Assembly (NCBI GenBank): GCA_026874595.1
Contig: CM049311.1
Span: forward strand, 59,215,953-59,279,952
DNA: 64,000 nt
Source of the DNA: Sipunculus nudus
Lineage: Eukaryota; Annelida; Sipuncula; Golfingiida; Sipunculidae
Direction: 5' to 3'
Positions within the stretch are counted from its first letter, which is position 1. Each line of letters starts with the position of its first letter. The translations under genes and the position numbers were made by a program. The notes under the pieces were generated by a model. That model saw only the letters and a list, made by a program, of their open reading frames with translations, was not told where the DNA came from and searched no databases. Below are positions 39,501 through 42,500 of this stretch, one piece after another.

Positions 39501-42500
39501 AATTTTGATGCATGCTTGTATATCTGGAGTGAATGACCAGCGTTCTGGTTTGAGTATTACCTCTGGGGTTAGTGCATCCCTGTGTTAGATCCATTGAGAG
39601 GGAATTAGCATCAGCTGTTTTAACTTCACGTTGAGTTCAGAGGCTTCATTACTCCTCCAGTATGGCCCATGCTAGTGGTGTTAGTGCTGCCACCTCTGTC
39701 AGTCAGCATTACCTCTCAAGGCACTCCATCTGATAGACTTGTCCAGGCAAAATACACAGCTGTAACAGGCTTTATCCAATCTATAAAAGCCAAGAAGACT
39801 GCTTTATTTAGCTGGTACCCCCATGGAAGTTCACTGTACAGATGTGTGTATGTGTGTGTTTTTGCATGTGCTGGTTGAAATATTGGAGCTTGGGGCTATC
39901 TAATCTTAGGTTTTTTCTAGTGTATTACAGGAAGAAGAGATTCCGTTTGTGTTATGTATATTACAGGCAGGTCTTTATATGTTTAGCTGACAGATATAAC
40001 TATAATATTTTACATTTTGTATGATTATATGTCATGTTTATCTGGTTATAATTTAAAGGACTCTGAGCTGCAGGGTTTGAGGAGGACCATTGAGGCACTA
40101 CGCAGCACCAGCGGCCTCGCGTTTGGTGGTCTGGACATCATGGACCAGGGCCACAGCTCACGTAGACCCTCATCTACATCTTCCACACTGTCAAAGGAGT
40201 CTGCTGCAAGTAAGTGACTGATCTCTGTGTTTATAATACTTTAACAATTATCTACTTGTTCAGAGGTATGATTCACCTGTCATCTGTGGAAGATGGACCG
40301 AGTAGGTTTTTGTTCACTGCATCGTATAATAGTTTTTAGCAGTAAAATTATCATAAAATAAAAGCCCTAAGTATAAATCAAATAATAATGTTTATGGTCA
40401 GTCTAGCAAGATTTTTTTAAAAATAAAATAAAAATAAAGGTTTTTGAAATAAAAATTATATATTAAGTAATATATAGTAAGTGCTATGTAACCTTTTGTT
40501 TTGTGTATAATTTCAGAACTGATGCCTTTACTACTATGTAACCTTGTGTTTTATGTATAGTTAAAGAGCTGATGCCTTTAGTACTATATAACCTTTTGTG
40601 TTTTCTAAAGTTTCAGAGCTGATGTCCTCAATACTATGTCATATTGTTTATATTAAGTGATATATATTAAGTGCTATGCAACCTTGTGTGTTGTGTATAG
40701 TTTCAGGGCCAATGCCTTTACTTCTATGTTAAGTTGTGTGTTATCTTTAGTTTCAGAGCCAATGCCTTTAGTACCATGTTACCTTTTGTGTAGTGTATAG
40801 TTCAGAGCCGATGCTTTCAGTACTATGTAACCTTATGTGAGGTGTATAGTTTCAGAGCCGATGCCTTCTGTACTATGTAACCTTGTGTGTGTTCTATAGT
40901 TTTCATAGCCGCAGCCTTTAGTACCATGTTACCTTGTGTGAGGTGTATAGTTTCAAAGCCGATGCCTTCAGTACTATGTAACCTTGTGTGTGTTCAATAG
41001 TTTTCAGAGCTGCAGCCTTTAGTACCATGTAACCTTGTGTGAGGTGTATAGTTTCAGAGCAGATGCCTTCAGTACTATGTAACCTTGTGTGTGTTCAATA
41101 GTTTTTAGAGCTGCTACCTTTAGTACCATGTAACCTTGTGTGAGGTGTATAGTTTCAGAGTCAATGCCTTCTGGACTATGTAACCTTGTGTTTTCTATAG
41201 TTTCAGAGCCAATGCCCCGTATAACTCGGCACCGCTCATCAGAGAGCATGAACAGTCTGACCAGTATGTCTAGTGCCTGCAGCGGCATGAGCCAGCAGTC
41301 TGCCAGCACTGATATCGAAGCTGCCAAGAAAAAGAAGAAGAAGAACTGGGTAAGGTGTACTTACAGCCACAATCTGGCTCAGACAGTGCAGTCTCTCTTC
41401 TACAGTCATTCAGCTACCCCTCACAGTGTACATTATCAAATGATGCCCTGACATTTTCACAACCTCATATTTTCTACACATTCTTATACACACAGGGTGA
41501 TGGTCATAGGTTAATATTTTCACAGGGTGTTTGCTTATATACTCTAGATATGTTTTCACAAGTTATTTCTTTACACTTGTGATGGATGGTCCCAGAGTTC
41601 ATCAAATGCACCTTTTGGGTGCTATTATTGGTAATGTTGAGGAGCTTGCTCGTTGGAACACCTGTAGACTCCCAGGTGTTGATGTTTGGATAAGCAGTGT
41701 GAAACTTAAACATATATAAAACAATTCTTTATCTTCCAATGTTGTAAGAAGATAAATAAAGTAAATCAAATGAAGGAAATGAGCTTACTCTTTTTGTGTA
41801 TGGATTGTTTTATTGTGCAAATGGGATGTTGGTAATTGTCCTATCTTGTAAAATAAAAAAGTTGTATTAATCACATCAATCTGTTATGGAATGTCTCATA
41901 TACATTGTCTTGGAATGATGTCAGTTATCTCACAGATGAATTTTAAAACTGATGCAATGTGTTTAATGGCTTAGTGTGTGTATAAGATGAGTTACTGTTG
42001 GAAATATTGTAAGACCTTTGTTTTTTATATTAATAATTACATGGTACTTCCAGTTCCGCAGTTCTTTTGGCAAGGCATTTTCAAGAAAGAAGGGAGGAAG
42101 ACAGGGAGGGGAACCCGACATGGATTCCATCAGTCTGCACTCTAACAGCTCAGTCCCGAACTCTCCTCTACTCAACACACACCAGATGTCACTACCCAGC
42201 CCTTTGAAGACATCTGGGTCATCGTCAGCGTAAGTTACATTTACTTTTCTAATGCAATGGTACAAAGATCAAATTTAAAACTGGCAGAAAGGTTTACCAA
42301 TTTATTTCTGTTACATGAAGATACAGCTGTGCGTTCATCATTGTGTACTATAGCAGAAATGTTTGAACGCAATCATCACAGATTTCAAGACATTCGGGTA
42401 AATGAATTTGAAGAAGGATAAATTTACTATTGACATCAGACTGTCTGAGAAGAGTAGAGGCTAAAGATGTTATTTAAGGAATACTCAAAGTACCATGTAG

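Follow-up and report, generated by a model that had tools for sequence, protein, structure and literature searches.

The intron ahead of one exon of a neuron navigator (NAV) gene of Sipunculus nudus carries a 50-bp minisatellite that repeats the 3' splice site of that exon, in such a way that the last of 15 in-register units runs into the exon itself. We consider it probable (around 0.78) that this array is a tolerated by-product of tandem duplication, with selection acting only on the last copy. Coordinates refer to the window, that is, the whole stretch of 64,000 nucleotides that was analyzed.

The NAV gene and its acceptor array

Downstream open reading frames match the Pfam families Ubiquitin_6 "Neuron navigator 1-like" (1.3e-11) and AAA_lid_NAV1 (2.6e-20), and therefore the 3' part of a NAV gene lies in the window; a Walker A exon sits between both matches. 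Fourteen exon starts were placed by reading the sequence. The initial annotation had called the exon behind the array exon 4 of NAV, in which the gene is right but the number arbitrary, because the window holds the 3' part of the gene and the upstream exons are not annotated. Exons are thus named here by letters (Table 1). Exon B supplies two nucleotides of the codon split with exon A and ends on a codon boundary, and the frame continues through exons C and D. Its start can be set after TATAG, at 41201, or after TTTCAG, at 41207, and the frame is kept either way; the reading of the array had been made to depend on this start, and both positions fall within the last unit. Homology does not decide between them, because the comparisons with PDB (no match for exons A plus B) and IMG/VR (five loci, matching the Walker A stretch only) are uninformative there. 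Each of the four NAV exons searched in the assembly was found at one place. A lysine-codon run, KKKKKKNW, stands directly before the donor of exon B (41207-41349). No RNA families were found at gathering score, and no tRNAs with ARAGORN.

Table 1. Features of the NAV acceptor array and its surroundings (window coordinates).
Feature	Position	Strand	Basis or remark
NAV exon A, 151 nt, donor feeding the array intron	40059..40209	+	leaves 1 nt of codon
Minisatellite with 50-bp 3' splice-site units (14 upstream units including 1 degenerate, and the exon-proximal one)	40480..41216	+	TRF, unit alignment, shuffles
Degenerate 40-nt unit U04, without acceptor core	40633..40672	+	TRF, unit alignment
Units U08-U14, alternating two-unit (~101-bp) higher-order repeat	40822..41174	+	88-94% identity within each alternating class
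Last decoy unit U14	41125..41174	+	acceptors 41152 and 41158 in frame, stop-free
Exon-proximal unit, intronic part	41175..41206	+	AGs at 41200 and 41206
NAV exon B, 143 nt, opening with the 10 repeated bases; alternative start at 41201	41207..41349	+	reading frame, phase
Second, decayed array before exon D (starts 42878), 7 in-register ~60-bp copies plus working acceptor	42398..42877	+	TRF, alignment, shuffles
Exon D donor region (donor 43020) with a weaker gapped copy at 43065-43129	43002..43129	+	0/200 shuffles
Two-copy tandem duplication of acceptor and first exon bases, Walker A exon H (from 48129)	48051..48144	+	alignment, shuffles

The array was detected by TRF with a period of 50, 14.9 copies, 75% matches and a score of 677. 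A 60-nt probe taken around the acceptor (-40 to +20) scored 63 against the 800 nt upstream, a value that none of 500 dinucleotide shuffles reached (shuffle maximum 31). These data, together with the unit alignment, confirm the roughly 14-fold 50-bp minisatellite of a splice acceptor before its own exon that the initial annotation had described, and the in-register units bear out its row of similar TATAG/TTTCAG acceptors ending in the working exon. The extent given for it, 40491 to 41349, required correction, since the array starts near 40480 and the segment 41217-41349 is exon beyond the repeat.

The 15 units comprise 13 upstream ones with a recognizable acceptor core, the degenerate U04 and the exon-proximal unit. 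The junction CAG is kept in 10 of the 15 in the in-register alignment, and identity among the 14 non-degenerate units ranges from 68 to 94%. The consensus unit, ACTATGTAACCTTGTGTGTGGTGTATAG-TTTCAGAGCCGATGCCTTTAGT, is laid out as a TAAC resembling a branch point, a tract rich in T and G, two AGs at a distance of six bases, around 10 exon bases and a linker, with TATAG/TTTCAG as the acceptors of typical units and AGCC(A/G)ATGCC as the repeated exon bases. From its motif, we take the TAAC to be a putative branch point; in the exon-proximal unit it lies 23 nt before the CAG, and 15 of 20 positions of the tract are pyrimidines. U04 is contained in a 190-bp segmental repeat (TRF 40459-40828). Units 8, 10, 12 and 14 form one class and units 9, 11 and 13 another, each 88-94% identical, so that a late spread of the two-unit block is probable; divergence is greater in U01-U06 and U15. 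The history that can be read from the units is one of ordinary repeat turnover.

Comparison with amphioxus mirages

In the excerpts of two papers considered here, the term mirage designates a minisatellite-like duplication of intron/exon boundaries in amphioxus (PMC3087553, PMC3902484), present in Adh3 and in the globin genes BflGb6 and BflGb9 (PMC3087553, which cites PubMed 12087171 as the original Adh paper), and in PGBD5 and troponin C (PMC3902484). According to the same excerpts, the units measure 10-72 bp in Adh3 and 150-160 bp in the globins, the haplotypes of BflGb6 carry 6 and 3 of them, and the Adh3 data and globin RT-PCR suggest that regular splicing is undisturbed (PMC3087553), as is likewise suggested in PMC3902484. 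Like the amphioxus mirages so described, the NAV array consists of tandem boundary-spanning units beside an authentic junction, with many copies keeping AG/GT signals; it differs in the gene affected and in having 15 units against the 6 and 3 of the BflGb6 haplotypes. The genome that carries it, with 1.43 Gb and around 36% GC, also contrasts with the roughly 0.5 Gb and 41% GC of lancelets, which suggests a host from another phylum.

Four features of mirages were looked for in the NAV array. Its units span the boundary, the repeat running to 41216, 10 nt into exon B; the unit has the size of a minisatellite, 50 bp (58 bp in a dynein array described below); the last unit runs into an open NAV exon in matching phase, which puts the authentic junction at the array's edge; and a homogenized interior with divergent edges gives the signature of turnover. 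By these four sequence-level features the NAV array, known here from one assembly, is a mirage. The initial annotation knew of no such case in a navigator gene, and "neuron navigator" was not found among the matches listed in the open-licence literature, for queries not on navigator genes alone. The claim of novelty holds only in part, since the kind of structure was already described in the excerpts from amphioxus (PMC3087553, PMC3902484), the only animal for which mirages were found in the open-licence literature searched. As a single locus, the NAV array is not surprising.

Two other systems share part of this behavior in the excerpts considered. Human internal tandem repeats at exon-intron boundaries within segmental duplications (PMC2812944) are likewise boundary minisatellite expansions that alter possible splicing, but they change the exon/intron structure of recent paralogues, whereas the searched NAV exons are single-copy and the array is intronic. 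Intron gain in Drosophila through duplication of proto-splice sites (PMC2891723) also relies on tandem duplication copying splice signals; there, duplicated coding sequence creates an intron, while in NAV an existing acceptor was multiplied and a new intron is not apparent.

Consequences of decoy use and explanations for the array

Between 40483 and 41215 there are 56 AGs; with exon A joined to each in turn, a stop appeared within exon B for 52 of them, the four stop-free ones being 41152, 41158, 41200 and 41206. The segment 40483-41199 contains 53 of the AGs, and a stop follows from the use of 51, so that the statement that any decoy would insert a TAG stop holds for these and fails for 41152 and 41158. 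Both belong to U14, the last decoy unit, for which the accompanying claim that each unit terminates in frame is incorrect; their use would lengthen the protein by 18 or 16 residues (54 or 48 nt). At exon D, a stop results from each of the 34 AGs between 42398 and the working acceptor at 42877, and at exon H from the decoy AG at 48081, whose use inserts 47 nt.

The strength of the acceptors was compared with matrices that contain generic frequencies, as do those used for donors and for the sampled junctions (see below). With the generic matrix, the working CAG tied for first among 66 AGs with the CAG of unit 6; with a matrix into which the remaining 13 NAV acceptors had been blended, its rank was 12, and that of its TATAG 6. 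Of the 14 units scored, the working one is the richest in pyrimidines (15/20), against 10/20 in the purine-interrupted tract of U14. Strength alone does not single out the working CAG, and thus closeness to the exon may be the likelier cue. Conservation of the AG columns was 0.946 versus 0.863 overall (random-column P 0.087, U04 left out); the decoy AGs are not clearly constrained, and this slight excess leaves room for weak constraint.

The array would have originated by tandem duplication of a short segment straddling the boundary, from the branch point and pyrimidine tract through the AG to the first exon bases, and would have grown and become partially homogenized by slippage or unequal exchange, the two-unit block spreading later. 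Such duplication of a whole acceptor cassette may be nearly neutral, because splicing at the exon-proximal copy would give the old mRNA and almost any upstream copy would give a stop and decay; the array would then persist as a side effect of the general propensity for tandem repeats to form. Splicing most likely uses the exon-proximal acceptor, which would keep the array harmless. The initial annotation had offered three options, and slippage selected only for keeping the final copy fits best, whereas buffering of the site or regulation of exon inclusion is unsupported given the P value of the AG columns, a working CAG that is not uniquely strong and junctions that are not enriched in duplications (see below).

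A regulatory function is, on these data, unlikely. Competing acceptors would produce transcripts with stops or the U14 insertion of 16 or 18 residues, and the number of copies would tune NAV output, in agreement with the open, in-frame acceptors of U14, with several decoys scoring at or above the working site by the blended matrix and with the trend of the AG columns to higher conservation; however, this trend is not significant, the U14 tract is interrupted by purines and poorer in pyrimidines than that of the working unit, and spanning duplications occur at background rates in the sampled dynein and myosin exons. It seems more doubtful that acceptor mirages are general in the genome and that some were co-opted, with U14 giving a regulated isoform (+16/+18 residues) and other units acting as poison acceptors that set NAV output. 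If this were so, copy number would be a heritable and mutable splicing dial.

An assembly error that expanded a genuine repeat of two or three copies appears very improbable, even though repeats are prone to such errors and one amphioxus mirage seems to be misassembled in the draft genome, according to the excerpt of PMC3087553. All the units differ, no two being identical (maximum 94%), similar arrays exist at independent loci, and the array was found at one scored place in the 1.43-Gb, 153-contig assembly, a count that is a lower bound because the search skips common words; these unit differences and single place, together with the single-place NAV exons, argue against simple false expansion. 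The fetched contigs of the assembly are 63-111 Mb long, and GC content is around 36%. The least probable explanation makes the array a source of microexons or introns, with phase-neutral 21-nt blocks between an acceptor and the next GT being recruited as proposed for the globin mirages, for which an intron-gain model is stated in the excerpt of PMC3087553. Such acceptor-to-GT blocks arise from 8 of the 13 upstream acceptors examined, and 7 of the 8 measure 21 nt, 6 of those being followed by GT, but the sites resembling donors are weak, with a top score of 6.1 among 90 GTs and a score of 4.2 for CAT|GTAACC, compared with 5.7-13.1 across 13 real donors. Pseudo-microexons within the array were rejected because of this weakness.

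Other arrays and the frequency of duplications at splice junctions

The NAV acceptor array is not unique, since the same genome holds a larger one in an unrelated gene, for a dynein. There, a dynein heavy-chain exon (DHC_N2, E 3.5e-37) lies behind an array of around 26 copies of a 58-bp acceptor unit (L044:2-1513, 23.9 + 2.2 copies by TRF), whose start coincides with the edge of the fetched stretch or lies beyond it, and the junction TAG is kept in 13 of 23 unit matches to one 30-base pattern. On the 3' side of the same exon (L044:2243-3119) there is a 26-bp minisatellite with 33.8 copies. A donor-side counterpart was found in a myosin-head exon, whose donor region has a tandem copy (L025:1624-1725). 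The NAV and dynein arrays suggest that boundary-spanning minisatellites extend beyond amphioxus and that a genome-wide census could treat them as a neutral source of alternative acceptors. The two are also natural arrays where, with the context constant, the spliceosome would have to pick the last among around 14 similar acceptors in NAV and 26 in dynein, and thereby a ready test of first-AG scanning versus exon-proximal choice.

The NAV gene itself contains further cases (Table 1). In the decayed array before exon D, lenient scoring located the seven copies, of which five extend into exon-like bases (+5 to +13), one reaches just to the junction and another falls 8 nt short of it; the shuffle test was made on the sum of four copies, which was 204 versus 99 +/- 7 in shuffles (0/200 reaching it). 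The duplication at the exon H acceptor was reached by 0/500 shuffles, and by 30/200 with the four-copy sum, a measure that suits arrays and not a single copy. Marginal values were obtained for the acceptor of exon G (4/200 shuffles, in an intron of only 102 nt) and for donors F (11/200) and E (14/200), and the other 11 NAV acceptors gave probe scores of 20 or less.

The frequency of duplications at junctions was compared with that at intron points, one spanning rule being applied to all points (score of at least 34, alignment covering -10 to +3). The sample consisted of 80 fetched exons, the best 30 of 75 myosin and the best 50 of 84 dynein DHC_N2 matches, with acceptors picked by a script and not from annotation; 16 of the 80 were dropped for having no positive-scoring acceptor or duplicate probes. 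Spanning duplications were found at 2/64 acceptors versus 59/896 intron points, and at 1/45 confident acceptors (matrix score >5) versus 34/630. One of the two positive acceptors, that of L036, is probably a miscalled exon, as the match holds stops and the acceptor scores 1.7. Duplications of any kind affected 5/64 acceptors versus 70/896 intron points (5/46 versus 15/138 in a first run), and for donors spanning duplications were present at 1/63 (that of L025) versus 5.8% of 882 control points.

For NAV, the strict rule gave 2/14 acceptors versus 22/203 intron points when the control included the arrays themselves, and versus 10/179 outside its three arrays (one-sided Fisher 0.21). Exon H fails this rule because the local alignment stops at +1; counting it under a lenient rule raised the acceptors to 3/14 versus 10/179 (one-sided Fisher 0.057), these Fisher values being rough, since control matches are clustered in few loci (L036 and L044 give 14 each of the 59). 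Scores of at least 37 were reached by 3/14 NAV acceptors versus 4.5% of 627 points outside the arrays. When all data were pooled and the NAV arrays and the L044 stretch removed from the controls, the ratios were 4/78 for acceptors versus 55/1061 (0.59, a similarly rough value). Preferential duplication at acceptors is thus not supported by these 78 acceptors, duplications being no more frequent at the sampled junctions than in intron interiors. Judged by these counts, introns acquire arrays at any position and some of the arrays catch an acceptor, with a mild excess in NAV being possible.

The placement of the arrays was examined too. Three of four arrays in the NAV gene end at an acceptor, which has a probability of 6.5e-5 for at least three under a null of end coincidence, but is common (0.27) under a coverage null in which exons are protected. 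This test was not relied on, as the four arrays had been selected by hand and any protection of exons would cut arrays off at acceptors.

Other tandem repeats are present in the window. A 40-bp minisatellite occupies 2507-2975 (11.7 copies, 92% matches), and longer repeats with units of 146-336 bp are found at 44424-45147, 60588-61821 and 62663-62968, with GGTCAAAGGTCAAGGTCACA-like cores common to the first and the last of these three.
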